Below, in pieces: positions 1 to 51,903 of a DNA stretch of 64,000 nucleotides. Numbering within the stretch: position 1 is the first letter of the stretch; every line of letters begins with the position of its first letter. A program made the position numbers and the translations under genes. Origin of the DNA: Crambe crambe (taxonomy: Eukaryota; Porifera; Demospongiae; Poecilosclerida; Crambeidae). Under the pieces are notes generated by a model. That model was not told the DNA's origin. It made no database searches and saw nothing but the letters and a program-made list of their open reading frames with translations. The DNA lies in contig OZ004588.1 of NCBI GenBank assembly GCA_963924555.1, forward strand, positions 372,001 to 436,000, read 5' to 3'.

Positions 1-110
1 GTTGTAGCTGCAAGCAGCACTTCAACTTCTTTTTATAGCAATCTGCATGTGTTTATGCGCATGCCCAGCACGTCACGCCCAAGCTTGCATCAGACACATG
101 CTATAGCCCC
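1..110 (-). promoter_or_regulatory. Promoter of a further Ig/SEA gene copy left of the window
   Basis: The first ~100 bases match the upstream regions of copies A, B and C: on the minus strand a TGACGT-like element, a GGGCATGCGCATAAA block, ATGCAGATTGC and a TATA box (TGCTATAAAA). In the other copies these sit 45-100 bases upstream of the ATG of the signal-peptide exon. The matching coding exon would lie beyond base 1, so at least one more tandem copy is expected to the left. Bases 110-474 show no gene. Confidence 0.65.
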
Positions 111-474
111 CGGCCCTCCACCTACGGAAAATTAAGGGTGCAGGCACACTCCGCCCACGCATGGTTGCTAGGGAAAATTAACTTAAAAACTATTCATGAT
201 AGAAATTTCTAACTTGCACCACATTATTAAGTATCAGAATAGTACTACATACACAAAAAATGAAGGAGGACCAATCAAAATGACTGATGTTATGACTGAT
301 TCCATTCTCAAGGTAAACTGCGTTACATCTCAATGACCACTTGGAATCAATGGCTGATTTTTGATATACAGCTTCTTATACTTATTGCCATAAAAATTAC
401 ATTTAGTTTTTGTCAATTCACATTCTACTTTTCAATTTATCCATATAGGATCTTGTGTCCTGCACATTCTGTAC

Positions 475-1284
475 TTAAGGGGCTCCGACATGACTACGCG
501 CGCGCATATAAGACAGAATAATTATTCTGCTGAAAAACCACAAGAAGGTTAGGAATGTAACTTTGTAATTGTGCAGGTGGCACATGAGCCATAAAAGCAG
601 GAAAAGTAATAATATCATGTAGCTAAAATAATGTAGGCAATCTATAATTATTTCCAGCGCCAGATTCAGAGCCCAGTACTGCAGTGTCACCGGAAGAGTC
701 TGGCCCGAGCGAGACTAACTCCAGAGCTAGTCTGGGCTAGCAGACCTCCGGTACAAAGAGGTGTTGAGATCCAGACGAGTGCGTTGGGAGAGAGAGGGCC
801 AGACTCTCCTGAGTCCAGGATCAGGGCCATCCTGCCGGATATAGTGGGTGGGGCAGGGGTGGGGCTGTGTATCGCAGATGCCTACTTGGCATGTTGTTTC
901 CGGGTAGACAGCTACGGATGGGATTAGGAAATCTTCAAAAACTGAAGTGATCAGAGCTTTCAGCAGTTCATTCTAAAGCTAGAAATTCGTGTAGCTAGGT
1001 TATATAGAGACAATTCGATCCGTAGTTGTCTTATAAGCATGCAAAAGAAGGATGTGAAACTATTTTCAACACTGTAAGTTTAGCACAAAAAAAGAAGTAT
1101 TAATTTTAGTCCTTTTAGCTTCAAGCGGTGCTAGCCTCTCGCTAGTTCTTGGGAGATCAGCGACCGTAGATAAGTCCTCCACTGTGATCTTTGTAGCTTA
1201 TCTCTGCAAGTGTCGGTAGTCTCGATATCAGTCCCTAGCAACCTGCAAAACAAGCGCGTGGGCGGGATGTCGGAGCCCCCTTAA
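475..1284. mobile_element. Non-autonomous TTAA-flanked inverted-repeat element (piggyBac-like)
   Basis: The left end reads TTAA then GGGGCTCCGACAT (475-491). The right end is its reverse complement, ATGTCGGAGCCCCC then TTAA (1267-1284). A TTAA target duplication with short terminal inverted repeats is the signature of the piggyBac superfamily. No transposase ORF is present in the ~800 bp interior, so the element would be non-autonomous. The equivalent intergenic regions of B and C lack this DNA: C runs directly from a GGGAAAATTAA stretch into sequence that here follows 1284. That comparison suggests the inserted DNA may extend left to about 183, so an older nested insertion is possible. Confidence 0.5.
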
Positions 1285-4200
1285 ATCAAAAAGGTAGAAA
1301 AATTATAGTGACAGTAGCTAGCAGTATAAAAGTCATAGAGTTAGTATGACATTAGCTAGGAACACATGACTGAATCTGAATAATTCCAATAAAAATTGAA
1401 CCTATTATGTGCAATTACATGGACAGCTAATATGAACAACAGCATTAGCTATAGCTACGTAATTATTATTATAGTCAGAAAGGCTTGGTCATCAAATGAA
1501 CTGATGATGAGTGGACATTCACTCTTGCTGGACAGCTTCAAACGGAATACATTGTAGAGGAGAGTACCCCTGGATTCACGCCAGTCCTCAATGTGCTCCA
1601 TGATCTGCTGGTCCCATTGATGGTGGCTCGGTAAATGACGTGAGTGATGAGGGAACCGGTGGACTGGCAACTGAACTCTCCGGAGAAGATGGACCTGGAA
1701 CTGAAGTTGCAATCACATCGCTCCCTCACAGCATTCTCCAGTTCCCTCCTGATGGAGGACTCCACATCTTGAGTTTTTCTCACCTGTAACAAGAAGCTAT
1801 ATGATGATGTAGCCATGCATGGTGGAAATACTCAACAGCTAGTTATGGATGGATGGTGGAACCCTCGGAACTCTATTACTCATTTGTGTCCCCTGAAATA
1901 AGGATTATTGTTTTCAGTTCAGGTTCCACTGTATAGCCTGCATATGCTACATGTATAAAATGGTTACTGTGTCTATAATCAAACTTGTATAATACTTACA
2001 TCCCAGTTGGCACAGTGAGATAATGGAGACATCTTCAGCTGGATATTGGCTTGAGCTACATGTGTATGGTATTATTATGCACAACTGTCATTGATAAACA
2101 CAAAACAAGATTCACTTGACACTGGGATATCAAATGAGGTAGAGATTTTCCTTGGTTGAGTGCTCATCCATGGAACGTGGACGGTTGCTCTGCAAGTGTA
2201 TGTCCCTTCATCGGAGGTGAGGACAGGGTTGAAGGAGAGGGAGAAGGTGGAGACACTTCCTTGAGTATTCACTGAACCCACCACAGTCATATTTCCTCCA
2301 CTCGACAGGACAGTCCCATCAGGCCCCACCCACTCAACCAAAGGGGGGAGTGTCATGCCAGGAATTGCTGTTACGGTGCATAGGAGGGAGTGCTGCTTGA
2401 GATGGAGAGCATTTTCACCACCAAGATTACTGACACTGACATGACACCAATCATTAGGAACTGCATGTGTACAAGTAGCAAGTCATGAAATCAAAATCAC
2501 TTTGAGTCCTAGCTACAGGAATAGGATATTGGGACTACCTCAATTTATTAACGAAGTCTATAATCACAATGCCCTAAAGAGAGGTCTTTTTTCAAGTGCT
2601 CCTTAGTCTTGCCACAATGACATCAGCTCTAGATATTTAAAATACCTTGAGGATTTTGTACAGTAGTGGTGTCTTGCTGTGTACCACATGGACTGGTCAC
2701 TGAACAACGATAAACTTGTCTCACTGCTGTGGTTATTGGAACTGTGATGTTAGAAGTATCATCATCTTGATACTGAGATGGGTAGATATCACTTCCTAAA
2801 AACCACTGGATTGATATTGGGTCAAGGTCACTTGAGCAAGAGCAATTAATACTATTTCCAACGATGAATTCAGCAATGGATCTGCAAATCTTTATTTAAA
2901 AAGTTACTTAAACTCATGAACATGCATGGCTATATTATGCTATAATAACTGAGTAGTGTATTCACCTTTTATTTCTATTGTCTCACTATCACTCCCAAAC
3001 TTGTTTCCCACTCGGTATGTGTAGACTCCAATGATATTTTTGGGAGTGTCACAGATCTTCAGAGTGATGTCAGTGTAAGAGCTGTACCTTGAGGTGATTC
3101 TTGTGCTCATTTGAGTGGTATTTCCATTGACTTCCAACCTCACACTATCTCTGAACCACTTGATGTCAGTAGCAGGTGCATTTTGAGTCTTGCAAAGGAA
3201 AGTCAACATATTATTCTGAGGATTAGAGTGTTCTAGCTGATAGATCCTAGGGAAACCTGCAATTATATTTATATGTTATAAATTAGCCATATTGGACTGC
3301 ATGATTTGACTTACTTCTGAATCCTTCACTGTAGAGTCCAATATTTACAGAAATACTGTTAGAATTGCTATCTTGTCTGGTGCATGTGTATATACCAGAA
3401 TAACTACTGTCTATATATAATGAGCGTCTATAGTTGATATATAATCGAGTACATCCTGCATAAGTTCCACTTGTATAATGAGCCATATAAAAATAGTAGA
3501 AATTACTACTATGCACAGAACCACTAGGACTTGTGAATCTTCCTCTTGATGTAGTTGAATTGGTGCAGCAATACATGTCGATTTTTGTATTATAAGAATA
3601 AGAGCGTCGAATAGTTGCAAAGCTGTTTTGTGGTTGTGCTGCTTGTGTGCCTCCATAATGAACTGGTGGAGATATATATACCAGCACCTATGTAATATAC
3701 ACAATAAATAGTGTAGTCTGTGTGGATGAACAAAGCAAAGTCTAATGGCAATGTAGAAAGCTACAGTGCTCAATTATAGTAACATACCCACAATCTTCAT
3801 AGTAGTCCTATTACTCCCTGTGTTGCCTATGCCATCTCTCACACTACAAGTGTGCACTCCAGCATCACGAGCAGTCAGGATAGAACTTGATATTGAACTG
3901 GAAGATGAACTAGAAGCGAAGCAGCTACTACAGGTAGAGGACCAACGATAAGAGACAGAGCCAGTGGTCTCAGAAGCCACACAGCGCAGAGTGACTGAGG
4001 AGGCAGCACGATAGTTGGGAGGGGAGTAGTCAGGGTACTGATCAGGAGGTGTGTAGGAGATTTCAATAGTAACTCAAATAGCTGTGAGATAAATAAAACC
4101 CTTAGTATCTTTCCATGCATCCAATTAGCCTCGTTGGATGGATGGTCATAGCTACGTAACTTTCTCTAGTTGTTTTAGGAAAAAGGACATAGATTGGTGA

Positions 4201-6701
4201 TGTGGTATTGATAATAATAATTATTAAGTTGTCAGTGGTGAAATATTCAAGCTCATACCTGCACTGAATGAAGTACTAGTGGTCTGCAATCCACTGGCAC
4301 ATATTGACGTTGATTGGGAGGTAACGGAAGAAGCACAAGCATAATTCCCAGAATCAGACGAACGCAAGGAACTGAATCGGAGAACAGAGTTATATTGATT
4401 TCCATAACGAGTAACTGGACTGATTGTCCTGCCATTAGTGCCTGATGTAATGATGCCTGAAGATCCTTCCCACCTGTGGGTTACACTCACGGGAGTGTTC
4501 ACCGCTGGGTTCAGATAGGTGGTACAAGTGAGGTCCAGTCGATTGGTGGTGAAGAGTTGTCCACCACTTGGATTACGTGTTATGCTGACACCATCTCTAG
4601 TAACTGCTCACAGCAGGTAATAAGGAAAGAAAAAACCATTTCTATCTACTTGTTCCAACCCAAAGCTAGTTGCAGTTAATTAGCAGTGTTATATATTAGG
4701 GAAAGTCCCTCTTCAGAAATTAAAATTCTTAATTCAGTAACCACAACTACCAGGCATGCATGCTTATTTAATGCTGCTTGGCTGTTTGTTTATTACCCAT
4801 AATAATTTTCACTTACTCTTCACTTTGATATCTTTAGTCATTAAGAAAGTGGTTTGCTAATTGTAGAGACACAGACATACTCTCCTCTATGTGCTGTTTT
4901 GAGAGGTGTGAATCTCAACTCTAGAGTGATAGTATTTCCTACAGTATGTGGGGGCCCCACCCACACATCATTTCTACTCGTCAACACTTGGTTGCTATTT
5001 GGATACAACCATTTTATCACTGGAACAAAATCTGAAGTAACAGTGCAATTCAGAGAAAAATTGCTGCCTGCATCTGGACAGCCCTGGATATCGCCAATCT
5101 CTACAGTGTGCTGCAACTCTGCATAGAACAAAATAGTAGCATTTTTGTTTACATTGTCCTTATTCCACAAAACATGAGCAGACATCTTAAAATAACATTA
5201 ATACTCTTCCGCTGGTTAGGTCAGAGTTTCTGAAGAAGATGGAAATCTTTGGAGCTATGGTCACCCATAAATGTGTCTATCAATATCGGGAAGACAAATT
5301 CACTGAAAATATAATATAGAATCAACATCTTCTCCTAAGGCTGCACAGCTTCTAATAGTAACTGGCTTTCAACTAACTGGCTGAATGACCTGAAGATAAA
5401 TAATATATGCCACTTATACTTATGTCACACAACAGACCACCTAAACCCAAGGGATGAAAGTTTCACAGAACTGTGAAATTTTGTGGGACAAAATTTTTGT
5501 GGTTTTAATATCTCGATTTTTGTAAAATCACCAAAATTTCGCCCCACGCTATACATGATATAATTTCACACTAAAAATCTCATCAGCAGTTTCACATAAA
5601 GAAAGGAGAGACACTTGGTCATATGCCATCCCTAAAAACCCAGGGTACAGAAGTATATTATTAGCTCACCTTTGACTTTGATTGTAACACTTTCCTCAAA
5701 ATTTTTTCCACTGTCTGCAGTAGTGACCCTGCATATGAAGGTGGCTCCATTCAGTGCAGTGGTGTCAGGGTTGAGTGTCAGGATCAGACTCTGTTTTCTG
5801 TCCTCACTCCTCTCCACTGGTTCCTCTATACCCACCAGCACCCACTCCATCATCGTCACATCAAGGAAAGTGGTGCAGTTTATGTCCCTTTGCAGACCAA
5901 CAATCACAGGAGATTCATAACCACTGATGTCTATAGCTGCGAGGAGGAAAATCTATTGTGGATTTGTGATGAAACCTGTCTCTGTTTAGATTAATAACTA
6001 CGTAATAATCATGTGCAATGCAAGGTTTCTCCTTCAATCAGCTTTATGAAACAAACCAGGTTTGATTCATAAAGCTAATTTTTATGAGAACTAGCTATAG
6101 ATAATTCTCCTGTCCAGCAAATATTGGCTTGTTATGCTCTCAAGATCACATAATGGTTTTTTTCATGTACTTCAGAGGATCAATTAGAGAATATGAACCC
6201 CTATGTATATGCACTTATCAAAATATCTTGTCAATTCCATTAGCAAGCACTTCAAATATTTTTGAATTGGATCACTCAAGGCTACACCCCTGACAGAATG
6301 CATCACCATCAATAGAAGTTGACATGTGAAATGAAATCAATGCCTACAAGTTTTAAGTCTATGCTGTCAGTCTGAAGCAGGCTTGGCATAGCTGCCAATT
6401 GTCCAGGGTTTCCCTAGATTGTCCAGGGATTTGGCCATTATGTCTAGGTGTCCATGGAGGGATTTGATCTATTTGTCCAGGGATTTTGCTCATTTTATGG
6501 CCAAGTTATTATTGTGGCCAGTGATCACATAGCTTAGTCTACAGCATTTTATATGTATAACTGGTAAAATCCAGGGAATCGTCTAGGATCTTTACTTCCA
6601 GGGATTGGCAGGTATGGCACTTATTATAGCCAAACATGCATTTATACTGGAGGCTACATCATTGTCTGTGTGATTCAACTTTTCTAAGCAGTTGATTTCA
6701 C

Positions 6702-7701
6702 CATAGATATAAGAGGTTTTATGGGATTGGAAACGCCCAATGAACTGCACAACCGAGGCGCGTTGATAGATGCGCACGCGCATGCAGCATTAATTATAAT
6801 TATTAATGGCTGTGAAAGGAGATCAATATTCACTCCTTTCAAGGCAGTTAAAGTGGTGTTCTGCTTGAAGAAGTGAAGAGTCAGAGAGTTGAAGTTGGAG
6901 AGTCTGAGGAAGGAAGCTATTAATTATTCTCCTTGTACTATGAGTACCTATCATTGCTCATTATACATTAATTTTATGTGATTGATTTGAAGAAAGGCCA
7001 AAATGACTTTTGGTATTAAAATTTAGACATAGATTCATTATTATTATAGCTAGGTAATTTTGCCCCGAAGTTATCTGCCAGTTTCTGCTCAGTTCTCCCT
7101 CATCAGCATTATTGCAATACTTCCAGCTTTTGGCTGTTGGATTTTGACACCATGAATTCGGCTCAGTCAGCTTGCCATCTCCATAGGATGACTATTGTAT
7201 AGAAAACAAATGCACCAATTCCATTTACTGTTCTATCCTTTCCCTGAAATAACTAATACAGTTGCAATATTGTTAATCTATTTCTTGGGAGAGGGATCAC
7301 AGTTTTAACACCACTTGTAAATGCTAGAGACAATATATGTCAGCTAATACAAAAACCAACATTACTATTCCATGTAGCTAAAGTTTACATGCCTTTTGAT
7401 CAGAAAATGGGCAACAGCAATTGATTCCATCAAGCGTGAGAGGAAATACAGTCCCATTAACCACTACAGTAGTATTTGTAGGAATAAACTTGAAATTCTG
7501 AGCTAAAATTTATTTTATACAGTAAATCTATGCCCTAGTGTATTATAGTATCATTGGCATAAGTCTTACCTCACGGATCTTGTCAGAACAGCAACTTTGA
7601 CAAAAGTGCTATGTCTATCAGCTGTCAACGTGCCTCGGTTGTTAGTTGCTAACGAGAGCACGTGATCCGTTTCCAATCTCGTAAAACCTCTTATATCTAT
7701 G
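6702..7701. mobile_element. 1.0 kb element with long terminal inverted repeats inside copy A
   Basis: The left end begins CATAGATATAAGAGGTTTTA and the right end closes with its reverse complement at 7682-7701. The inverted similarity continues imperfectly about 90 bases inward: GGATTGGAAAC against GTTTCCAATC, and an ACAACCGAGGCGCGTTG block against CAACGTGCCTCGGTTGT. The element lies in the intron between modules 3 and 4 of copy A, within ~1.9 kb (about 5960-7860) that is absent from the same intron of B (~120 bp) and C (~95 bp). I see no clear target-site duplication and no transposase; a 63-codon ORF at 6592-6783 spans the left edge and is not recognisable. The rest of the insert contains repeated TGTCCAGGGATTT-like words (6400-6610) and a small hairpin near 6040-6080. 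Confidence 0.6.
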
Positions 7702-8318
7702 AACTTCATAAACTCAAAATCTCAAGCTAAAGTGCTAATACTAGTATATTGCAATCAGAATGCAATGTGCACAGCAAGGGCCCTAGTCAAGAGCTTTGGG
7801 GACAAATCAGTACCCCTTTGGGGATGTGGGAACAAAGCTGCAATTTGGGGACCGGACTATGAATTGTATATTTGTAAAAGTCAACCTTATGGGGATCACA
7901 GTGATGGAACATGCAAACAGAAATAAGACACCAGCTATATTTAATATAGCTACTTCACAAATGAGTCAGACATTCATTGTATATCTCTATACATTATTTA
8001 GTACCTTTGACTGATTTGCTGAGCATGTTAGAAGTCCCCAACCTGTTGGCCACAGCACAGCTGTATTCTCCAATCACATCTTTTCAATGGTGCCATTGAT
8101 GGTGAGGGTATTATTGTAAGTGGAAGTTTTGCGATTCACAAGTGTCTGGGTGAGCTGGTAGATACTGGAGCTGTTGGAGTAGATTCTCTCACCATCTTTC
8201 TCCCATATGACATCAGTGGGAGGGGAGTCACAGGACAAACAGGAGATGGTGGAAGGGGAACTGAGAAGAGACTCCTTTAGTTCAGTCAGAGTAGGACCAC
8301 CTGTACAATAAAAATCCT

Positions 8319-8337
8319 CCCCCCCCCCCCCCCCCCC
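8319..8337. repeat. Poly-C run (19 C) in copy A
   Basis: This is an uninterrupted run of C in the intron between modules 2 and 3. The same intron of copy B has a 25-C run, and copy C has none. A second C-rich tract lies at 8821-8857. Run length should be treated as unreliable in assemblies. Confidence 0.9.
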
Positions 8338-8979
8338 ATAACTATAATTTTTACTAGATATTGAAGACAGGTAGAGTCCAAAGTTAACATCAACAGAGAC
8401 TCCATTTTCATCTGGTATGCAGCAGGTATAGATTCCAACATCAGCTGCCACTAGTGGTCTCACATTAGTAACCACCAGTGAGCCTGGTTCATAATTAGGT
8501 GGTATAAAAGGATCAGAACGTGAGTTAGTGATGTCCTTCCCGTTAGGATCTATTAATCTGCCAACATTCAAGGTGGAGGAACCAGAGAGACAACAAAATC
8601 TAGGGATGCGGCCAGAAGGGTTAGTGGTGGTGATGAGACTATTATTGGGAATAACTCGTCCTCCACCATGGTGCAGATAGATTCCAGCACCTGTGTGGCA
8701 AAGTATAACGTAGTTAGCTATAAAGCAGTTAGCCTATACAGCTAGACTCTAGACTTAGGAAATAATTGACTGACTCAAATATTAAATCAAGCATATCCAT
8801 GCATTTGATTGCTAAAACCAGTCCCCCCACCCCCCCCTTCCCCCCCTCCCCCCCCCAAAAAAAAAATAAAAAATTCAGTGCTTTTAGCCATTGATAAAGC
8901 TTTTTAATAACTTTTTGCAGCACATCATGTACAAGTGGCAACACGTTAATTAAATTGCAGTGCACATGTCCATCCATAA

Positions 8980-9251
8980 GGCCACTATTTATAGAATCCT
9001 AGTTTCCTGTCCAAGAAGACATCTACAAGTGCTGCGGGCGGGAGGTTATTATAATTATTCTTCATTGTTTGTCTCAAAGGTCCTGTCTTCATCATTCACC
9101 ACGGGTTTTCCCAAAAAGAGCTGTTTGTGAAGCCAGACATGCGCGCTCTACTGCGCGCATGAGCAGTAGCAGTAATAATATTTTTTGATGCAGTGACATT
9201 TTCAATACGCGGGCGGTGGACAGGAAACAATCATTCTATTTAATAGTGGCC
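8980..9251. mobile_element. 272 bp Harbinger-like MITE with TAA target duplication
   Basis: The ends are GGCCACTATT (8980) and AATAGTGGCC (to 9251), with imperfect inverted similarity extending ~34 bases to a GTTTCCTGTCC / GGACAGGAAAC pair. It is flanked by TAA (8977-8979) and TAA (9252-9254). The empty site is visible in B (near 15765) and C (near 22490) as CCATAATAATGG, exactly what removal of the element plus one TAA would give. A 3-bp TWA target duplication is typical of PIF/Harbinger elements. No coding capacity. Confidence 0.8.
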
Positions 9252-9600
9252 TAATAATGGTGCATGTAAATTCTCATAGCATTCTGTAGTGAAATGATGT
9301 GCAAACACTGCTCACCTACTACTTTGATGGTGATATTTGCAGTTCCACTGCAACCCAGTGCATCATACACAGTGCATGTGTGCACACAGAGTATGTTGAC
9401 ACAATCTTAACCTTCACGTCCCCTTTCATTAGAGAGCAAATAATAGTAGCTTAACTCTCCATGCTCTAGTAATAGCTATCAGTAGTAACTCACCAACATT
9501 GCATGGTTTGACTGGAAGGACTCCAGCCATCAAAATCAAGGCAAACACTAAGAACTCTTGCACCATCATAGCTATCTAGCTTGCTCGTTTAAAAGCTCTT

Positions 9601-9670
9601 GTTGCAGCTGCAAACTTATTTTATAGCAATCTGCATGTGTTTATGCACATGCCCAGCAGGTCACAGCCTT
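9601..9670 (-). promoter_or_regulatory. Core promoter of copy A
   Basis: Read on the minus strand: GGGCATGTGCATAAA, ATGCAGATTGC, then a TATA box TGCTATAAAA about 50 bases before the ATG at 9569. The block is shared with B, C and the window start. Copy A has lost the CpG of the GCATGCGC motif (GTGC instead of GCGC) and has CCTGCTGGGC in place of the TGACGT-like context, which fits its decay. Confidence 0.6.
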
Positions 9671-9954
9671 CCAGCCCCGCCCCGCGGGCCGGCCCCCCCG
9701 ATGGGCTGGCGCGCGCAGGAGGCAGTAAAGTTTAAACGCATGCGCAGTAGACACATGTGTGTCGACATATCATAGCAATATAAAAGTGACAGTAGTAGTA
9801 TAAAAGTCATAGAGCATCACATGACTGAATCTGCAAAAAAAGAAAAAGAAAGAAAAAGAAAACAAAAATTGAACGCAATTACATGGGACAGCTAATATGA
9901 ACAACAGCATTAGCTATAGCTACACAATTATCATTATAGTCAGAAAGGGGTTGG

Positions 9955-12900
9955 TTAGCATTCTTGGTCATCAAATGAACTGATGGTGAGTGGACATTCA
10001 CTCTTGCTGGACAGCTTCAAACGGAATACATTGTAGAGGAGAGTACCCCTGGATTCATGCCAGTCCTCAATGTGCTCCATGATCTGGTCTGCAGTGAGGT
10101 CACTGGTCCCATTGATGGTGGCTCGATAAATGACGTGAGTGATGAGGGAACTGGTGGACTGGCAACTGAACTCTCCAGAGAAGATGAACCTGGAGCTGAA
10201 GTTGCAATCACATCGCTCCCTCACAGCACTCTCCAATTCCCTCTTGATGGAGGACTCCACATCTTGAGCTTTTCTCACCTGTGATTCAAATGCTATGATG
10301 AATAGCGATAGATGGTGGAACCCTCAAATCAGTGCTGCATTCATTACTATGTGTGTCTCCAGAAATAAGGACATTCATGCACCTCTCAAATCAGGAGACC
10401 TTAAACTTGAATACTTACATCCCAGTTGGCACAGTGAGGTAATGGGGACATCTTCAGTTGGATAATGGCTGTATAATATTATCATGCATGAGTAGCAGCT
10501 GCCTTGATGAACACAAGACTCACTTGTGACTGGCATATCAAATGAGGTGGAGATTTTCCTTGGTTGAGTGCTCATCCATGGAACGTGGACGGCTGCCCTG
10601 CAAGTGTATGTCCCTCCATCGGAGTTGAGGACAGGGTTGAAGGAGAGGGAGAAGGTGGAGACACTTCCTTGGGTATTCACTGAACCCACAGTCATATTTC
10701 CTCCACTCAACAGGACAGTCCCATCAGGCCCCACCCACTCAACCAAAGGGGGGAGTGTCATGCCAGGAATTGCTGTTACGGTGCATAGGAGGGAGTGCTG
10801 CTTGAGATGGAGAGCATTTTCACCACCAAGGTTACTGACACTGACACGACACCAATCATCAGGAACTGCATGTGTACAAGTATAGCTCATGAAATCAAAA
10901 TCACTTGAGTCCTAGCTACAGGAATAGCGATGTTTATAACCTTGATTTATTAGCGAAATTTATAATCAGAATGCCCTGTAAAGAGAGGTCTTTTTTTAAG
11001 TGCTCCTTATAGTCTTGCTATGATTACATTAGCTATAGATACCTTGAGGATTTTGTACAGTAATGGTGTCTTGCTGTGTACCACATGGACTGGTCACTGA
11101 ACATCGATAAACTTGTCTCACTGCTGTGGTTATTGGAACTGTGATGTTAGAAGTTGTGATGTTATCATCATCTTGATCCTGAGATGGGTAGATATCACTT
11201 CCTGAAAACCACTGGATTGATATTGGGTCGAGGTCACTTGAGCAAGAGCAATTAACACTCTTTCCAACAATGTATTCAGAAGAATTGCAATGGATCTGCA
11301 AACCTTTATTTAAAAAATTACTTAAACTCATGAACATGCATGGCTATATTATTAGGTGAGCTATATTAACTGAGTAGTGTATTCACCTTTTATTTCTATT
11401 GTCTCACTATCACTCCCAAACTTGTTTCCCACTCGACATGTGTAGACTCCAATGGTATTTTCAGGGTTATCACAGATCTTCAGAGTGATGTCAGTGTAAG
11501 AACTGCGCCTCGAGGTGATTCTTGTGCTCATTTGAGTGGTATTTCCATTGACTTCCAACCTCACACCATCTCTAAACCATTTGATGTCAGTAGCAGGTGC
11601 ATTTTGAGTCTTGCAAAGGAAAGTCAACATATTATTCTGAGGATTAGAGTGTTCTAGCTGATAGATCCTAGGGAAACCTGCAATTATATATTCATATAAC
11701 TACCCATTTTGGATTACATGATTGACTTACTTCTGAATCCTTCACGATAGAGTCCAATATTTACAGAAATACTGTTAGAATTGCTATCTTGTCTGGTGCA
11801 TGTGTATATACCAGTATTACTATTGTCTAAATAAAATGAGCGTTGATAGATGAAATCAAATTGAGTACATCCTGCATAAGTTCCACTTGTATGATGAACA
11901 ATAGAAAAAAAAAACCAGTGGACAGTATCAAAGTAGTAATAACTACTATGCACAGAACCACTAGGAATTGTGAATGTTCCTCTTGATGTAGTTGAATTGG
12001 TGCAGCAATACATGTTGATTTTTATTCTATAATTAGATCTTTGAATTATACTTGCAAAGCTGTTTTGTGGTTGTGCTGCTTGTGTGCCTCCATATGATGC
12101 ACTGGAGGAGATATATATACCAGCACCTATGGTATCATAACACAATAAATAGTATAGTCTGTGTGGATGAAGAATATGCATGGAACAAGGGAAAGTGTGT
12201 TGGCAATACAGACACTGTTGGCAATGTAGATACTGTGCCCAATTATCATAGGAACATACCCACAATCTTCATAGTAGTCCTATTATTCCCTGTGTTGCCT
12301 ATGCCATCTCTCACACTACAAGTGTGCACTCCAGCATCACGAGCTGTCAAAAAGTTTTGTGATATTGAACTGGAGGAGGAACTAGAAGCGAAGCAGCTAC
12401 TGCAGGTGGAGGACCAACTATAAGAGACAGAGCCAGTGGTCCCAGAAGCCACACAGCGCAGAGTGACTGAGGAGGCAGCACGATAGTTGGGAGGGGAGTA
12501 GTCAGGGTACTGATCAGGAGGTGTGTAGGAAATTTCGATAGTTACTCGAATAGCTGTAAGATAATTAAATTCTTAGCTACAATCTTTGCATGGATCCAGG
12601 TAGCCTCACTGGATGGATGAAGATCTACATATTATAGCTACAGCATATTTTAGGCAAATTAAGGGACATATATCGGTGAAGGATCTTTATGTTGTCAGTG
12701 GTGAAATATTCAAGCCCATACCTGCACTGAATGAAGTACTAGTGGTCTGCAATCCACTGGCACATATTGAAGTTGACTGGGAGGTAACGGAAGAGGCGCA
12801 AACATAATTCCCAGAATCAGATGAATGCAAGGAACTGAATCGGAGAACAGAGCTATATTGATTTCCATAACGAGTAACTGAACTGATTGTCCTGCCATTA

Positions 12901-15900
12901 GTGCCTGATGTAATGATGCCTGAAGAGCCTTCCCACCTGTGGGTCACACTCACAGGAGTGTTCACTGCTGGGTTCAGGTAGGTGGTGCAAGTGAGGTCCA
13001 GTCGATTGGTGGTGAAGAGTTGCCCACCACTTGGATTACGTGTTATGCTGATACCATCTCTAGTAACTGCTCACAGCAGGAAATAAGAAAGAAAGAAGGA
13101 AAAAAGATATCACCACCACAACTTGTTCCTAATCACCCACAGCTAATTGCAGTTAGCACGTTTCACAGTTACATAATTGAGTTACATATTAGGGGAAGTC
13201 CCTCTTCAAATTAAAATTCTTAATTCAGTAACCACAACTACCAGGCATGCTTATTTAATGCTGTTTGGCTGTTTGTTTATTACCCATAATAATTTTCACT
13301 TACTCTTCACTTTGATATCTTTAGTTATTCTCTTATAAGAAAGTGGTTTGCTAATTGTAGAGACACAGACATACTCTCCTCCATGTGCCGTTTTGAGAGG
13401 TGTGAATCTCAACTCTAGAGTGGTAGTATTCCCTACAGTATGTGGGGGCCCCACCCACACATCATTTCTACTTGTCAACACTTGGTTGCTATTTGGATAC
13501 AACCATTTTATCACTGGAACAAAATCTGAAGTAACAGTGCAATTCAAAGAAAAATTGCTGCCTGCATCTGGACAGCCCTGGATATCACCAATCTCTACAG
13601 TGTGCTGCAGCTCTGCATAGAACAAAATAGGAATTTACATCTCTTTTCTGTCATTCACTTTGTTTTATTCTGGTTCATGAGCAGACATCTTAAAACAACA
13701 ATACTCTCAGCTGATTAGGTCAAAGTTTCTGGAAAAACTTGAGAGAGTTATGGTCATAGTGAATGTATCTATCAATAATTATTGGAAATGCAGATTCACT
13801 GAGAATAGCTATATCCCATTATAGGATGGAATCATCTTTATTCTAAAAGCATTTAGATGCATTATAAAAAGTTTCCAAGTAATTGGCTGAGGTAATGCTG
13901 GGAAGATAACACTGACCATGATTCATGCTATTGTGCCACTGATAAGAATGGTCAAGAAATATTGGTTATCTATAGGACCACAAGAGATTTCCTCAGCACA
14001 CAACCAACCAGAACCTTCTGGATAGTGCCTCAATGATGCCACAAAAAGGGGAAAGAGACAAGCAAGATCCCAATCTGTGGGACCACAACACATTCTGGTC
14101 ATAGCCAATGCAACCACCTTGATAACATTACAATCACCCAAAGGGATAAGGGTTCCACAGAGCTAACCATGAAATTTTTGTGGGAGGAATTTTTTGTGGA
14201 TTTGTGGTTTTGAAAAATTAATACATGAATTCATATCTCAATTTTTTATGAATCTCTTTTACCCCACAAAATTCATGCTATAGCTCTATATTATGATATC
14301 ATTATTTCACACTAAAAGAGTATCAGCAGTTTCACATAAAGAAGGAGAGAAACTCAGTCATACATATACTATATATTATTGGCTCACCTTTTACTTTGAT
14401 AGTAATACTTTTCTCAAAAACTTTTCCACCGTCTGCAGTAGTGACCCTACATATGAAGGTGGCTCCATTCAGTCCAGTGGTGTTAGGGTTGAGTGTCAGG
14501 ATCAGACTCTGTTCTCCATCCTCACTCCTCTCCACAGGTTCTCCTACACCCACCGGCACCCACTCCATCATCGTCACATCAAGGAAAGTGGTGCAGTTTA
14601 CGTCCCTTTGCAGACCAACGATCACAGGAGATTCATAACCACTGATGTCTATAGCTGCAAGGAGGAATGTATATTATATGTAAACCTTATGAGGATGACA
14701 GTAATGGGACATATATACGTACACCAGCTATATATATATATATATATATATTATACTGTATACAATCTATAGTACCTTTGACTGATTTGCAGAGTTTGCT
14801 GGAAGTACCCAACCTGTTGCTTGCAGTGCAGCAGTATTTTCCAATCACATCTTCAATGGTGCCATTGATGGTCAAGGTATTATTGTAAGTGGAAGTTTTG
14901 CGATTCACAAGTGTCTGGGTGAGCTGGTAGATACTGGAGCTGTTGGAGTAGATTCTCTCGCCATCTTTCTCCCAGATGACATCAGTGGGAGGGGAGTCAC
15001 GGGACAAACAAGAGATGGTGGAGGGGGAACTGAGAAGAGACTCCTCTAGTTCAGTCAGAGTAGGACCACCTGTGTAAAGAAGACAATAAAAAATCCTCCA
15101 ATTAACCCCCCCCCCCCCCCCCCCCCCCCCGTCACATAATTTTTACTAGATATTGAAGACAGGTAGAGTCCAAAGTTAACATCAACAGAGACTCCATTTT
15201 CATCTGGTATGCGGCAGGTATAGATTCCAACATCAGCTGCCACTAGTGGTCTCACATTACTGACCACTAGTGAGCCTCGTTCATAATTAGATGCTACGAA
15301 AGGATCAGAACGTGACTTAGTGATGTCCTTCCCATTAGGATCTATTAATTTGCCAACATTCGAGGTGGAGGAACCAGAGAGACAGCGAAATCTGGGGATG
15401 CGACCAGAAGGGTTAGTGGTGGTGATGAGACTGTTATTGGGAATAACTTGTCCTCCACCATGGTGCAGATAGATTCCAGCACCTGTGTGCCAAAATACAA
15501 TGTAGTTAACTATGAAGCAGCTAGCCGTAGCTATAGAGCTATAGACTTGGAAAATTTTGACACTCAAATATTTATTCATATCATGCCTTTGATTACTAAA
15601 GCCTAATATCGGTCCAAAAAAAAGTTCAGTGCTTTTATATTTTTAGCCACTGCAAGTAATGGCTTTGAAGCTATGCTTAATTCACACTATAATTATTCGC
15701 AGTGCATCATGTATATGACAACATGTTAATTAAATTGCAGTGCACATGTACATGCATGTCCATCCATAATAATGGTGTGCATGTATATTAATTTCTCATA
15801 GCATTCTGTCATTATGGCTAGCTAGCTACCATGTAGTGAAATGATGCACTACAAACAATCCATAATACATCACTCACCTACTACTTTGATGGTGATGTTA

Positions 15901-16349
15901 GCAGTACCACTGCAACCCAGTGCATCATACACCATGCATGTGTGCACACCACTATCTATGGAATGAAGACCATGGAGAGTGGACGCACGCCTGGAGGATC
16001 CCCTAGTAAAGCAACTGCCAGAGCAGGTGGAGGTCCACTCGTAAACAAGACTTGAAACATCTTCCACTCCCTCCACCTCACAGGAGAGGGAGAGAGAACT
16101 GGCAGCACGGTAATAGGGAGGACCAAGTGAGAAGGACGAGGGTGCAGTGTATGTTGGCACAATCTTAACCTTCACGTCCCCTATCATTAGAGAGCAAACA
16201 ATAGTTAGCTAGATTATCTTATAAGTTTGTTTAACTCTCCATGCTCTAGTAATAGCTATCAGCAGTAACTCACCAGCTCTGCATGGTTTGACTGGAAGGA
16301 CTCCAGCCATCAAAATCAAAGTAAACACTAAGAACTCTTGCACCACCAT
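9955..16349 (-). CDS. Copy B: intact 11-Ig-module secreted protein with C-terminal SEA-like domain
   Basis: Fourteen exons join in frame with GT-AG ends to 3888 nt (1295 aa): 16274-16349, 15878-16180, 15147-15482, 14776-15069, 14388-14654, 13304-13612, 12722-13066, 12260-12553, 11731-12126, 11387-11677, 11043-11303, 10524-10865, 10419-10468, 9955-10278. Residues 1-~22 are a hydrophobic signal peptide (MVVQEFLVFTLILMAGVLP). Ig-like modules 1-11 occupy about 26-1171, one per phase-1/phase-1 exon, mostly with the B-strand Cys and a D-G-Y-C-type F strand. Residues ~1172-1295 show a beta-alpha-beta-beta-alpha-beta pattern (strand IIQLKM, helix VESSIKRELESAV, SGEF, HVIYRATIN, helix TADQIMEHIEDW, VFRLKL) resembling a SEA domain, but with SGEF where cleaving SEA domains have G-S. 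No transmembrane segment or GPI signal follows, so the product is probably secreted. Module 8 (742-873) is the variable module. N-glycosylation sequons are frequent. Adhesion or immune recognition is inferred from architecture only. Confidence 0.88.
15106..15130. repeat. Poly-C run (25 C) in copy B intron
   Basis: Homopolymer directly beyond the splice donor of the module-2 exon (the donor lies at 15141-15146). Present in A (shorter) and absent in C. Confidence 0.9.
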
Positions 16350-16404
16350 AGCTAGCTATCTAACTCGTTCGATCGCTCGTTTAATGCAGATCCTTTGGTG
16401 TGTG

Positions 16405-16505
16405 AAGCTCTTGTTGAAGCTGCAAGCAATACTTCAACTTCTCTTTTTATAGCAATCTGCATGTATTTATGCGCATGCCCACTACGTCACGCCCAATCCC
16501 CGGCC
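16405..16505 (-). promoter_or_regulatory. Core promoter of copy B
   Basis: Minus strand order: GGGCGTGACGTAGTGGGC (a CRE-like TGACGT), GCATGCGCATAAA (an NRF1-like palindrome), ATGCAGATTGC, TATA box GCTATAAAA at about 16446-16454, then ~100 bases to the ATG at 16349. All elements except the exact spacing are shared with copy C and the window start. Confidence 0.6.
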
Positions 16506-16799
16506 CCCCCCCCCCGATGGCATATGGGCGGTAAAATTTAAAACGCATGCGCAGTAGACACAATATATAAAGGGAAAATTAATGTACACCAAATCAAAAA
16601 GGTAGAAAATCATAGTAATAAAGTGACAGTAGCAGTATAAAACTCATAGAGCATTAGCTAGGAACACATGACTGAATCTGAATAATTCCAAAGAAAACAA
16701 AATTGAACCTATTATGTGCAATTACATGGGACAGCTAATATATGAACAACAGCATTAGCTATAGCTATGCAATTATCATTATAGTCAGAAAGGGGTTAG

Positions 16800-19700
16800 C
16801 TAGCATTCTTGGTCATCAAGTGAACTGATGGCGAGTGGACATTCACTCTTGCTGGACAGCTTCAAACGGAATACATTGTAGAGGAGAGTGCCCCTGGATT
16901 CACGCCAGTCCTCAATGTGCTCCATGATCTGGTCTGCAGTGAGGAGGTCACTGGTCCCATTGATGGTGGCTCGGTAAATGACGTGAGTGATGAGGGAACT
17001 GGTGGACTGGCAACTGAACTCTCCAGAGAAGATGGACCTGGAGCTGAAGTTGCAATCACATCGCTCCCTCACAGCACTCTCCAGTTCCCTCTTGATGGAG
17101 GACTCCACATCTTGAGCTTTTCTCACCTGTGATTCAAATGCTATGATGAATAGCTATAGATGGTGGAACCCTCAAATGAATCAGTGCTGCATTCATTACT
17201 ATGTGTCTCCAGAAATAAGGACATTCACCTCTCAAATCAGGAGACCTTAAACTTGTACATACAATACTTACATCCCAGTTGGCACAGTGAGGTAATGGGG
17301 ACATCTTCAGTTGGATATTGGCTTGAGCTGTATAATATCATCATGCATGAGTAGCAGCTGCCTTGATGAACACAAGACTCACTTGTGACTGGCATATCAA
17401 ATGAGGTGGAGATTTTCCTTGGTTGAGTGCTCATCCATGGAACGTGGACGGCTGCCCTGCAAGTGTATGTCCCTCCATCGGAGTTGAGGACAGGGTTGAA
17501 GGAGAGGGAGAAGGTGGAGACACTTCCTTGAGTATTCACTGAACCCACCACAGTCATATTTCCTCCACTCGACAGGACAGTCCCATCAGGTCCCACCCAC
17601 TCAACCAAAGGGGGGGAGTCTCATGCCAGGAATTGCTGTTACGGTGCATAGGAGGGAGTGCTGCTTGAGATGGAGAGCGTTTTCACCACCAAGGTTACTG
17701 ACACTGACATGACACCAATCATCAGGAACTACATGTGTACAAGTAGCAAGTCATGAAATTAAAATCACTTCTTGAGTCGTAGCTACAGGAATAGGATGTC
17801 TATGGTCAGGATAACCTTGATTTATTAGCGAAATTTATAACCAGAATGCCATAAAGAGAGGTCTTTTTTAAGTGCTCCTTAATCTTGCCACGATGACATT
17901 AGCTCTAGATATTTAAATACCTTGAGGATTTTGTACATTTATGGTGTCTTGCTGTGTGCCACATGGACTGGTCACTGAACAACGATAAACTTGTCTCACT
18001 GCTGTGGTTATTGGAATTGTGATGTTAGAAGTATCATCATCTTGATATTGAGTTGGGTAGATATTACTTCCTGAAAACCATTGGATTGATATTGAGTCGA
18101 GGTCACTTGAGCAAGAGCAATTAACACTCTTTCCAACAATAAATTCAGAAGAATTGCAATGGATCTGCAAACCTTTATTTAAAAAGTTCTTAAATTCATG
18201 CATGAACATGACTCTATTATTAGGTGAGCTAGAGTAGTGTATTCACCTTTTATTTCTATTGTCTCACTATCACTCCTATACTTATTTCCCACTCGACATG
18301 TGTAGACTCCAGTGGTATTTTCAGGGTTATCACAGATCCTCAGAGTGATATCAGTGTTAGATCTGGACCCTGAAGTGATTCTTGTGCTCATTTGAGTGGT
18401 GTTTCCATTGACTGCCAACCTCACACCATCTCTGAACCACTTGATGTCAGTAGCAGGTGCACTTTGAGTCTTGCAAAGGAAAGTCAACATATTATTCTGA
18501 GGGTTATATAGAGTGTTCTAGCTGATAGATCCTGGGGAAACCTGCAATCATGTTAATAATAATTAGTATAGTTTTAAAAATCATAACCAACTTACTATTG
18601 AATCCTTGACTGTAGAGTCCAAAGTCAATGGCAATATTATTATTATTGCTATCTGGTATAGTACATGTGTACACACCAGGATAACTAAAACTATAAGGCC
18701 GGTAGTTAGGATGAATATAGAATTGAATACATCCAGCATAATGTGTAGGACTTGCATACATGTAGTTTCTATAGTATCCACTGGTATGTCTGTAACCATT
18801 GGGATAGGTTACAGTTCCTCTTGATGAACTTGAATTGGAGCAGCATACCATATTTAATCTCCTACTTCCAATAGATGGATACCAATTGTTAAAACCTCCT
18901 GTATCTACAAGGACATAACTATTTTGTGGTTGTGCTGCCTGTGTGCCTCCACAGATGGAATATGACTTCGTAGTTACATATATGCCAGCACCTGTTAATA
19001 ATTAAAAGTCTTAGCTAATGGGAGGAAGGGCATGATTAGATACACTCACCTACTATCTTTATAGTAGTCCTGTTACTCCCTGTGTTGCCTATGCCATCTC
19101 TCACACTACAAGTGTACACTCCAGCATCACTAGCTCTCAAAGAGCTTAGTGATATTGAACTGGAAGAAGAACTAGAAGCAAAGCAGCTACTGCAGGTGGA
19201 GGACCAGCGATAAGAGACAGAGCCAGTGGTCCCAGAAGCCACACAGCGCAGAGTGACTGAGGAGGTAGTGCGATAGTTGGGAGGGGAGTAGTCAGGGTAC
19301 TGATCAGGAGGTGTGTAGGAAATTTCGATAGTAACTCGAATATCTGTGCAATAAATGAACCCTTAGTATTTTGCATGCATCCAATTAGCCTCGTTGGATG
19401 GATGGTCATATCTATATACAGCAACGTAATTGTTTAGGCAAAGGGATATAGATTGGTGAAGGTAATTAGAGGTAATTATATCATGTTGCTAGTGGCCCTC
19501 ACCTGCACTGAATGAAGTACTAGTGGTCTGCAATCCACTGGCACATACTGAAGTTGACTGGGAGGTAACGGAAGAGGCACAAGCATAATTCCCAGAATCA
19601 GACGAACGCAAGGAACTGAATCGGAGAACAGAGCTATATTGATTTCCATAACGAGTAACTGAACTGATTGTCCTGCCATTAGTGCCTGATGTAATGATGC

Positions 19701-22700
19701 CTGAAGATCCCTCCCACCTGTGGGTTACACTCACAGGAGTGTTCACTGCTGGGTTCAGGTAGGTGGTACAAGTGAGGTCCAGTTGATTGGTGGTGAAGAG
19801 TTGTCCATCACTTGGATTACGTGTTATGTTGACACCATCTCTAGTAACTGCTCACCAAAAATAAATAAAGAAAGAAAGAAAGAAAAGAAAAGGAAAAAAA
19901 TATATACCAAGTAGGAAAAAAATTAGTAGGGAAAAAAAACATAATAAAAAAAACAAAAACAAAATGTAATAAATAAATAATTCAATTCAATTGCAATTAG
20001 CAGGTCAAACAGTAGGGAAAGTCCCTCTTCTAGAGTTGCAGTTAGTAGATTTCATTGTTGCCTACATATCTAGGGAAAATCCCTCTTCAGAAATTAAAAA
20101 CAACTGCCAAGCATGTATCTAAAGCCTAGCTACCATGATAATTTTCACTTACTCTTCACTTTGATATCTTTAGTCATTCTCTTATAAGACAGTGGTTTGC
20201 TAATTGTAGAGACACAGACATACTCTCCTCCATGCGCTGTTTTGAGAGGTGTGAACCTCAACTCTAGAGTGGTAGTATTTCCTACAGTATGTGGGGGCTC
20301 CACCCACACATCATTCCTACTCGTCAACACTTGGTTGCTGTTTGGATACAACCATTTTATCACTGGAACAAAATCTGAAGTAACAGTGCAATTGACAGAA
20401 AAATTGCTGCCTGCATCTGGACAGCCCTGGATATCACTAATCTCTACAGTGTGCTGTAACTCTGCATAGAACAAAATAGCAAATATGTTCAGCATTGCAG
20501 CTATATTCTAGAGAGTACTATCGTATAAGTGCAGCTGCCTGTCATTACATTGTCCTTATTTGAAAAAAAAAAGAAAGACATTTAGTGGTTCATGAGCAAC
20601 ATCATTAATACTCTCAGCTGGTTAGGTCACCTGTGTAATGCTAGTCAAGTTGGTTACAACAGCATGAATACAGAATACTAAACCAAAATTTACATAGCTT
20701 CTTTTTAGGTCCAAAGCCATGCAGAGTTGAATGGAGGGTATGTAAACTTGGTTTTGATTTCTTGTTGCAATGATCACTGTATCTATGGGACTGCAGATAC
20801 AGCTTGTTTCATCACCTTTGCAACTCAGAAAGCAGATCACACAAGCCACAGTTTACACTAATCCATTATTCCACTACTCCATCAAAGTATACCAGTACAA
20901 TAGACTGAGGTTTAGTGTGCTCTAGGCTTGTTGCAAAGGTGCTGAAACAAGCTGTAAGCCAATCTGCATGTGGGGCCAAAACACATTCTGGTTATAGCCA
21001 ATGCAACCATGATAATATTACAATCACCTACAGGGATGAGAGTTCCACATAACCATGAAATTTTGTGGTAGAATTCTTGTGGTTTTATTGAATTTATATC
21101 TCAAATTTGCCCCAATTTCATTCCAATTTCATACTAAAAATTATCACCAGCAGTTTCACGTAAAGAAAGGAACATACCATTGGGATGGAAATCCAGCAGG
21201 GTACAGAAGTATATATATATATATTATTGGCTCACCTTTGACTTTGATTGTAACACTTTCCTCAAAAACTTTTCCACTGTCTGCAGTAGTGACTTTGCAT
21301 GTAAAGGTGGCTCCATTCAGTCCAGTGGTGTCAGGGTTGAGTGTCAGGATCAGACTCTGTTCTCCATCCTCACTCCTTTCCACAGGTTCTCCTACACCCA
21401 CCAGCACCCACTCCATCATTGTTACATCAAGGAAAGTGGTGCAGTTTATGTCCCTTTGCAGACCAACGATCACAGGGGATTCATAACCACTGATGTCTAT
21501 AGCTGCAAGGGAAATCTATCATGTATAATTGTCCAAGTCAACCTTATGAGGATCATAGTTAATGGGCATGACATTCATTGCATATTCCATTATCCAGTAC
21601 CTTCGACTGATTTGCAGAGTTTGTTAGAAGTTCCCAACCTGTTGCTTGCAGTGCAGCAGTATTCTCCAATCACATCTTCAATGGTGCCATTGATGGTAAG
21701 GGTGTTGTTGTATGTGGAATTCTTGTGATTCACTAGTGTCTGAGTGAGCTGGTAGATACTGGAGCTGTTGGAGTAGATTCTCTCACCATCTTTCTCCCAG
21801 ATGACATCAGTGGGAGGGGAATCACGGGACAAACACGAGATGGTGGAAGGGGAACTGAGAAGAGACTCCTCTAATTCAGTTATAGATGGACCACCTGCAC
21901 ACAGAAGACAATAATGATATTTCCCTCTTAAAGAAAAATTAATTTTACTAGATGTTGAAGAAAGGTAGAGTCCAAAGTTAATATCAACAGAGACTCCATT
22001 TTCATCTGGTATGCGGCAGGTATAGATTCCAACATCAGCTGCCACTAGTGGTCTCACATTAGTAACCACCAGTGAGCCTCCTTCATAATTAGATACTATA
22101 AAAGGATCAGAACGTGAGTTAGTGATGTCCTTCCCATTAGGATCAATTAATCTGCCAACATTCGAGGTGGAGGAACCAGAGAGACAGCGAAATCTAGGGA
22201 TGCGGCCAGAAGGGTTAGTGGTGGTGATGAGACTGTTATTGGGAATAACTCGTCCTCCACCATAGATTCCAGCACCTGTGTGCCAAAATACAACATATTA
22301 GTTAGCAGTTGGCTTATACAGCTAGACTTGGGAAATAATGACACTCAAATATTGAATCAAGCATATCCATGCATTTGATTGCTAAGACCTAAAATTGGTC
22401 CCCAACAAATTCAGTGCTTTTAGCCATTGCAAGAATGGCTTTATAGTAATTACTTGCAGTACATCGAATTGCAGTGCACATGTCCATCCATAATAATGGT
22501 GCATGTAAATTCTCATAGCATTCTGTCATTATGGCTTTCATATAGTAAAATGATGAACACTCCATAATAATTATACTCACCTACTACTTTGATGGTGATG
22601 TTTGCAGTATCACTGCAACCCAGTACATCATACACTGTGCATGTGTGCACACCACTGTCTATGGAGCGAAGACCATGGAGAGTGGACACACGCCTGGAGG

Positions 22701-23056
22701 ATCCCCTCGTAAAGCAACTGCCAGAGCAGGTGGAGGTCCACTCATGAACAAGACTTGAAACATCCTCCACTCCCTCCACCTCACAGGAGAGGGAGAGGGA
22801 ACTGGCAGCACGGTAATAGGGAGGACTGAGTGAGAAGGATGAGGGTGCAGTGTATGTTGGCACAATCTTAACCTTCACGTCACCTATCATTAGAGAGCAA
22901 ACAATAGTTAGCTAGATTATCTTATAAGTTTGTTTAACTCTCCATGCTCTAGTAATAGCTATTAGCTAGTAGTAACTCACCAACATTGCATGGTTTGACT
23001 GGAAGGACTCCAGCCATCAAAATCAAGGCAAATACTAGGAACTCTTGTACCATCAT
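16800..23056 (-). CDS. Copy C: 11-Ig-module/SEA-like gene with one homopolymer frameshift
   Basis: Architecture is the same as copy B. Exon 1 is 22981-23056 (signal peptide MMVQEFLVFALILMAGVLP). Module 1 is ~22573-22880, module 2 ends near 21955, module 3 ~21601-21893, module 4 ~21237-21503, module 5 ~20150-20464, module 6 ~19501-19850, module 7 ~19049-19343, module 8 18596-18991, module 9 ~18247-18540, module 10 ~17922-18170 and module 11 ~17389-17720. The SEA-like exons are 17272-17327 and 16800-17126. All exons are open except module 11, where a run of 7 G (plus strand, near 17611-17617) replaces 6 in A and B and leads to a stop a few codons later. This is either a recent inactivating mutation or a sequencing error. 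Module 2 has a 9-base in-frame deletion near its start. Module 8 differs widely from A and B, although flanking modules are nearly identical. Confidence 0.75.
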
Positions 23057-23087
23057 AGCTATCTAACTCACTCGCTCGTTCAATGCA

Positions 23088-23145
23088 ATTTCAACTTTTA
23101 TAGCAAATCTGCATGATTTATGCGCATGCCCAGCACATCACGCGA
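23088..23145 (-). promoter_or_regulatory. Core promoter of copy C
   Basis: Minus strand: GCGTGATGTGCTGGGCATGC, GCGCATAAATC, ATGCAGATTTGC, TATA box GCTATAAAA about 45 bases upstream of the ATG at 23056. Shared with the other three copies. Confidence 0.6.
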
Positions 23146-23206
23146 TTCCAGGCCCGCGCGCGCAAACTTAAAACTCTCCCAGCTAGTGCTAACAGTGCAG
23201 TGGGGA

Positions 23207-51500: not shown

Positions 51501-51903
51501 ATGTGATAGCTAAAGGTTGCTAGTTATTGTTGTTGTCATCATCGTTGTTGTCATTATTTTTGTTGTTGTTATTGTTTAATTATTACAGAGTGATGACTTG
51601 GAGAGGTCTATTCAAGATCGCTTGGTGAAGGAAATAAATCGGCGTTGTAAGTGTGGGTTCAGGAGTAGCAATATCATCTCTGGAGAATTCAGACAGCAGA
51701 TCTCCACCCATTCCATCATCTATCGAGCCAAAGTTCACATTACCAATGGTACCCATGCCACTGTGGACCAAGTCATGGGGTACATTCAGGAATGGCGAAA
51801 AGACCAAGGAACATTGCTCCTTCATTTCTTCCGTCTCACAGTTGCCAATGAGATGGAGTGTCCACTTCGCATAATGTCCTTTGATGGCACGGAATGTGTC
51901 TAA
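48597..51903 (+). CDS. Gene D: compact intact 5-Ig-module/SEA-like secreted protein
   Basis: Eight exons join in frame to 676 aa: 48597-48642, 48708-49004, 49196-49501, 49751-50077, 50134-50529, 50891-51181, 51245-51297, 51589-51903. Exon 1 encodes the signal peptide MKYCYLFALFLSSFLG. Five Ig-like modules follow (~16-554), each on a phase-1/phase-1 exon. The second resembles module 1 of copies A-C (VSIVAEYTPP, STCSGDCF, SGVHTCTV). The third resembles module 7 (HYTPPDQYSYYSPPNYR). The fourth resembles variable module 8 (GSGIY start, FYCC, SGIYTCRVPES) and has a strikingly Tyr-rich loop (YYYYNYGYYYEYHS). The fifth resembles module 9. The SEA-like domain follows (FQLKLRPI; SIIYRAKVHIT; SGEF; FFRLTV), ending ECPLRIMSFDGTECV. 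No transmembrane segment. Modules 2-6, 10 and 11 of the left-block genes have no counterpart here. Opposite orientation to copies A-C. Confidence 0.88.

Follow-up and report, generated by a model that had tools for sequence, protein, structure and literature searches.

Tandem genes for multi-Ig proteins in the sponge Crambe crambe, with an excess of replacement changes in the eighth module

A stretch of 64,000 nucleotides from the genome of the demosponge Crambe crambe (contig OZ004588.1, here C11; C11:372001-436000, referred to as the window) carries a tandem array of large genes encoding immunoglobulin (Ig) modules. Four collinear copies of a 13-exon gene, named Z, A, B and C, were found on the minus strand, with Z lying to the left of the window. 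The eighth module, encoded by exon 9 (E9), shows an excess of replacement changes that is real and local. On a tentative reading, the array belongs to a large family of secreted multi-Ig proteins that is still duplicating, and E9 would be the ligand-contacting module of recognition proteins. Copies were located by blastn of the window against its flanking DNA, after which exon models were built; the genome searched comprises 143 Mb in 119 contigs, and all rate comparisons were made within this one assembly.

Replacement changes in the eighth module

A preliminary description of the window had recognized A, B and C as minus-strand tandem genes, each with 11 modules and a SEA-like end. This holds, with E2 of A shortened, and Z is added as a fourth copy. 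The limits it gave for module 8 are those of E9 in the three copies.

1-82, minus strand: region upstream of copy Z, whose exons are at C11:365.1-372.0 kb, beyond the window (blastn against the flanks, exon models)
1484-9569, minus strand: copy A, a pseudogene with a 196-nt deletion in E2, frameshifts in E4, E6, E9, E11 and E13 and a stop in E8
3315-3687, minus strand: E9 (module 8) of copy A, with a 2-nt deletion
9958-16349, minus strand: copy B, an intact 13-exon gene with signal peptide, 11 Ig modules, SEA-like C-terminal module and stop
11731-12126, minus strand: E9 (Ig module 8) of copy B, fast-evolving by its rates, with an Ig fold predicted from a model
16803-23056, minus strand: copy C, with the same 13 exons and frameshifts in E10 (+4) and E12 (+1)
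18596-18991, minus strand: E9 (module 8) of copy C, a divergent lineage, closer to a copy on contig C12 (C12a)

Copies Z and B are open throughout. Counting by the Nei-Gojobori method gave a replacement divergence (dN) of 0.119 and a silent divergence (dS) of 0.065 for E9 of this pair, a ratio of ~1.8 (1.90 and 1.65 on two other alignments), based on 30.5 replacement and 5.5 silent differences over 122 codons; for A and B these were 30.5 and 2.5 over 120 codons. The other 12 exons of Z and B showed dN values of 0.014-0.091 and dS values of 0.060-0.255, with dN/dS ratios of 0.10-0.64 except for the 25-codon E1 (1.20). In this intact pair, E9 is the sole long exon whose dN/dS exceeds 1, and its dN is larger than that of the others by factors of 1.3 to 8.5 (Fisher test, E9 versus 12 other exons, p=0.0001). 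In a likelihood analysis with a small codon program written for the purpose, with eleven other exons for comparison (E1 left out), the dN/dS ratio omega of E9 was 1.45 for Z-B and 1.36 for Z, A and B, against 0.35 and 0.42 in the other exons (p=0.0013 and 0.0032). The earlier expectation of a replacement excess confined to module 8 is borne out by these numbers.

The comparison of synonymous divergence across modules that had been proposed as a check was run within the one genome: dS of E9 (0.03-0.14) is not raised relative to the other exons (0.06-0.26, Z-B). Among Z, A and B, silent divergence of E9 was 0.03-0.07 in DNA alignments and 0.07-0.14 in a protein-guided alignment, and because it is not raised a mutation hot spot was rejected for these copies. 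When changes were polarized with A, 20.5 replacement and 1.5 silent changes fell on the B lineage (binomial p=0.07; simulation with an intron kappa of 2.4, p=0.008) and 7 and 4 on the Z lineage; simulation of the Z-B pair gave p=0.052. A separate B branch had an omega of 5.0 (p=0.051 versus 1). Diversifying selection is likely on this one branch and unproven overall.

Z, A and B are about 90-94% identical in the compared codons of module 8, nearly all substitutions being replacements, while C shares only 42-46% of its amino acids with the other copies. The statement that module 8 differs widely is therefore correct for C but not for the other three, and the contrast first drawn between A, B and C, though rightly placing the variation in module 8, lumps together a pseudogene (A) and, in C, an older exon lineage. 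The segment with WFFFSIV noticed in B is indeed peculiar to it: compared with Z and A, B has a clean in-frame insertion of 21 nt here; both indels between Z and B keep the frame. The module 8 difference of A is no pure frameshift artefact, as the frame past its 2-nt deletion continues without a stop and the exon differs from that of B by the 30.5 replacement and 2.5 silent changes given above.

Throughout, E9 retains its cysteines and the core motifs CC, YAGC and YTC, and changes are found in three segments and in-frame insertions. Across the 20 aligned E9/E3 rows, cysteines C40 and C109 never change, and C41 and C86 are kept in at least 90%. The predicted structure of E9 is an Ig fold, and its seven profile matches, most of them adhesion-type Ig domains, include NCAM2, CRTAM, DSCAM and CEA. 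Variable columns were set from other groups alone and then applied to pairs of group I, to which the array belongs. The dN/dS ratios of variable versus framework columns were 2.84 versus 0.91 for Z-B (Fisher p=0.18, not significant), 2.85 versus 1.46 for A-B, 1.60 versus 0.53 for Z-C (p=0.052) and 0.91 versus 0.97 for C-C12a.

Architecture of the copies and possible exchange between them

Each copy was originally a gene for a signal peptide (E1), 11 modules (E2-E12) and a SEA-like module (E13), without a membrane span; secretion of the group-I proteins is predicted from this design. The signal-peptide-like exon was recognized by inspection in 4 of 4 copies. All internal exons of copy B have AG/GT sites and are in phase 1 at both ends. 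The exons of B other than E9 are:

16274-16349, minus strand: E1, signal peptide by inspection (MVVQEFLVFTLILMAGVLPVKPCRA)
15878-16180, minus strand: E2 (module 1), paralogous to E8, without a Pfam Ig match of its own
15147-15482, minus strand: E3 (module 2), paralogous to E9
14776-15069, minus strand: E4 (Ig module 3), paralogous to E10; Pfam Ig_3, 39.4 bits, cut-off 30
14388-14654, minus strand: E5 (module 4), weakly paralogous to E11, without a Pfam match
13304-13612, minus strand: E6 (Ig module 5); Pfam Ig_3, 32.2 bits, cut-off 30
12722-13066, minus strand: E7 (Ig module 6); Pfam Ig_3, 24.5 bits, below the cut-off of 30
12260-12553, minus strand: E8 (Ig module 7), the conserved partner of the variable module, conserved family-wide; Pfam Ig_2, 27.8 bits, cut-off 27
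11387-11677, minus strand: E10 (Ig module 9); Pfam I-set, 37.1 bits, cut-off 23.7
11043-11303, minus strand: E11 (Ig module 10); Pfam ig, 21.4 bits, slightly below the cut-off of 21.8
10524-10865, minus strand: E12 (Ig module 11); Pfam ig, 23.7 bits, cut-off 21.8
9958-10292, minus strand: E13, SEA-like module, with the stop immediately past a conserved Cys

Pfam Ig models thus reached their cut-off in five of the 11 B modules (E4, E6, E8, E10 and E12) and stayed under it in E3, E7 and E11; the scan gave no Ig match for E2, E5 and E9. These profiles, together with the predicted Ig fold of E9, place the proteins in the immunoglobulin superfamily (IgSF). The block E2-E5 appears to be internally duplicated as E8-E11, with 37% identity between E2 and E8 (100 columns), 31% between E4 and E10 (91 columns) and a weak 27% between E5 and E11 (89 columns); E3 and E9 share just 25 matched residues, at 52% identity.

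The stop in E13 lies at the terminal Cys or one residue further in Z, B, C and C12a, in the relatives Y, W1 and W2 (see below) and in three group-II frames. Some 385 bases separate the start codon of A (9569) from the stop of B (near 9955), and ~450 separate B from C, leaving little space for a membrane exon. A single giant gene was ruled out by the presence of a separate signal-peptide-like exon in every copy and of separate terminal stops in Z, B and C. The E13 model is of low confidence (pLDDT, a predicted local accuracy score, 68.2); Foldseek found no match at E 0.001 or better and Pfam none. E13 was compared with the C-domain of EpCAM/Trop2 and the membrane-proximal SEA-like domains of phogrin/ICA512, a comparison in which this low-confidence model is without Foldseek or Pfam match. 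SEA-like modules form a large family of their own, with many copies on C12 and others on C9, C10, C16 and C19. Membrane relatives do exist: the module at C12:4608150-4608455 leads into a membrane helix with a short tail.

Most exons show 90-98% DNA identity between copies, in agreement with the near-identical, recent background described earlier; this picture does not extend to the introns, where 21-32% of ungapped sites differ, nor to modules 9 and 10 (E10, E11), in which Z, A and C are just 80-94% identical to B. Divergence in the introns exceeds that at most silent sites of the exons, a pattern that gene conversion would produce. In E12-E13, B and C are near-identical at silent sites (dS about 0.04), less so elsewhere, as patchy gene conversion would give. 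The E4-E5 intron of A is longer. An intron of A contains, at 6702-7701, ~1 kb with 86.5% identity to C12:4633028-4634136, which may be an inserted mobile element.

E9 of C differs from that of Z and B by a dS of ~0.6 and a dN of ~0.41, compared to dS values of 0.04-0.30 for its other exons against Z, A and B; its distance to the C12 copy is smaller (dS 0.21, dN 0.22). Of the 12 exons E2-E13, E9 alone places C nearer the C12 copy than Z and B by both dN and dS; in E10, dS from C is 0.185 to C12a, 0.301 to Z and 0.158 to B. E9 trees have a long stem beneath Z/A/B (0.87 changes per column, support 100/100). A grouping of C with C12a was rejected in neither exon by the approximately unbiased (AU) test (p 0.226 for E9, 0.151 for E8), so a difference in branching order is not proven, and the kinship of E9 of C with C12a is read solely from branch length and dS. 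E9 of C represents an older lineage; conversion that spreads old E9 lineages and conversion that spares E9 both fit.

The family beyond the array

Genome searches returned at least 32 E9-like, 63 E8-like and 82 SEA-like matches; these counts are lower bounds, the best candidates having been scored. The cluster on C11 extends over 190 kb, its SEA-like ends lying between 352 and 542 kb and its E8-type exons between 357 and 540 kb. Other groups lie at C11:4.89-5.01 Mb and C12:4.617-4.626 Mb, and E8-like matches occur on C16. The E8-E9 pair is present three times each in gene Y and in the group-II sets. Three further members lie within the window:

48764-51897, plus strand: W1, a divergent relative with E2-, E8-, E9-, E10- and E13-like exons
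52193-57671, plus strand: W2, a divergent relative with E2-, E3-, E4-, E5-, E6-, E8-, E9-, E10- and E13-like exons, some broken up
63616-63909, plus strand: E8 exon of the first group-II gene, which runs beyond the window

A set of 29 E9 sequences was composed of W1 and 28 of the 32 E9 matches; C12:4617562 and C11:5007447 (both partial), C11:529996 and C11:539890 were left out. Of the 406 comparisons among these 29 pairs, 371 have E9 less conserved than the adjoining E8 (mean identity 47% versus 72%); within classes the figure is 28 of 42.

Class IIb E8 exons (C11:437685, 451402, 470118, 502381 and 525915) showed dN/dS above 1 in 5 of 10 comparisons, e.g. 14 replacement to 4 silent changes; outside class b this was seen in one class-a comparison. 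A tandem duplication (62340-63095 and 63107-63803, 89.6%) surrounds the first group-II E8 exon, and the open frame 62914-63255 joins a partial E8 to a following EGF domain. Between the Ig arrays, 44378-46624 (plus strand) holds an uninterrupted frame of 748 codons with weak ATG16/coiled-coil similarity. The mitochondrial COX1 of the assembly, on a 19.5-kb contig, needs TGA as Trp, in agreement with demosponge mitochondria as described in an excerpt of PMC2444032; other animals share this reading. No relatives were confirmed among bacterial and archaeal contigs (10 pattern matches) or viral contigs (18 pattern matches), and titles and abstract openings among search results from an open-access library yielded no description of such a sponge Ig array.

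Recognition as a proposed role, and its alternatives

If the proteins serve recognition, E9 would contact varied targets, microbial or other non-self surfaces, with the remaining modules as a scaffold in which the neighbouring E8 stays near-fixed while E9 varies. Copies arise by tandem duplication, would be partially homogenized by gene conversion and frequently lose function, as in A and C, and E9 would either escape this or drive the divergence among copies.

Several results speak against this reading. By likelihood, omega of E9 is not significantly above 1 (p=0.44 for Z-B, 0.49 for Z, A and B); the local excess stands, but the diversifying selection first proposed is not proven, the B branch being borderline. 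Among recent duplicates in groups II and III, 28 of the 29 comparisons gave a dN/dS below 1 for E9, indicating purifying selection, with a range of 0.15-1.01 and 23 of 29 values between 0.2 and 0.6. E9 exceeds E8 in dN in just 15 of the 29 (class a 0/10, b 7/10, c 6/6, group III 2/3). These within-class comparisons omit 14 that involve gene Y, for which dN/dS of E9 was 0.18-0.42 and dN of E9 exceeded that of E8 in 9. Since E9 falls below E8 in conservation family-wide but is under purifying selection in groups II and III, its fast evolution is old and general, and the recent replacement excess is found in group I only.

The likelihood result and the purifying selection in groups II and III would suit a module that is simply the least constrained, E9 drifting through relaxed selection, AT-rich triplet slippage and incomplete gene conversion, with the other exons conserved or homogenized and no role in recognition. 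The dN/dS of about 1.0 for E9 of C and C12a, alike in variable and framework columns, also agrees with this, as does the intron divergence. Relaxation would however not yield the omega and the 20.5 to 1.5 ratio of the B branch, borderline as these are, and the invariant cysteines and frame-keeping Z-B indels point the other way, making this explanation rather unlikely.

A role as gamete, matrix or cell-adhesion proteins, with the fast module tracking a conspecific partner protein instead of foreign targets, is suggested by the secreted multi-Ig build and the adhesion-type profile matches of E9. Nothing specific argues against it, but the number of E8-E9 pairs, ~30, is high for a matrix component, and it is considered improbable.

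In the Alr proteins of Hydractinia, variability is N-terminal; here it lies in an internal module, the eighth and not the exposed first, paired with a conserved one. Both systems are clusters of IgSF genes with pseudogenes, low identity between members and a variable extracellular part (excerpts of PMC11067881 and PMC11999971). Alr1 and Alr2 are single-pass membrane proteins (excerpt of PMC11067881), whereas the E13 stops in the genomic sequence end the predicted secreted 11-module proteins in a SEA-like module without a membrane span. An allorecognition locus of the Alr kind, whose polymorphic Ig proteins decide fusion or rejection, would suit the tandem cluster, the single variable Ig module and the specific acceptance or rejection of sponge grafts (excerpt of PMC5450542), but these differences, and the absence of the word 'immunoglobulin' from the main text of that one grafting transcriptome paper, make it quite improbable.

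Mollusc FREPs (Ig-containing immune lectins) and arthropod Dscam are likewise extracellular Ig-module proteins that are partly diversified (excerpt of PMC11999971). Unlike FREPs, the B exons gave no fibrinogen domain in Pfam scans; unlike Dscam, the group-I genes have one E9 exon each (4 of 4 copies), with no mutually exclusive exon array, and vary between gene copies. The sponge aggregation factor contains Calx-beta and Wreath domains, and differs in this from copy B, for which Pfam scans of E2-E13 gave no Calx-beta match. It resembles the present family in consisting of secreted sponge proteins that are self/non-self candidates and reported to be polymorphic (title of a reference in PMC5450542).

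Recognition by E9 might, in its boldest and unlikely form, amount to an undescribed sponge system for non-self recognition, with secreted giant Ig proteins from a 190-kb birth-and-death cluster, a cassette of constant E8 and variable E9, specificity in an internal Ig domain and E9 lineages exchanged between contigs. Which sponge molecules discriminate self or microbes from non-self is an old open question, and the cluster supplies named exons, E8 and E9, with coordinates for work on polymorphism, expression and binding. If E9 proves to be polymorphic or ligand-binding, it would represent a variable recognition Ig domain in an animal lineage among the first to branch off, in an unusual secreted, internal-domain form.

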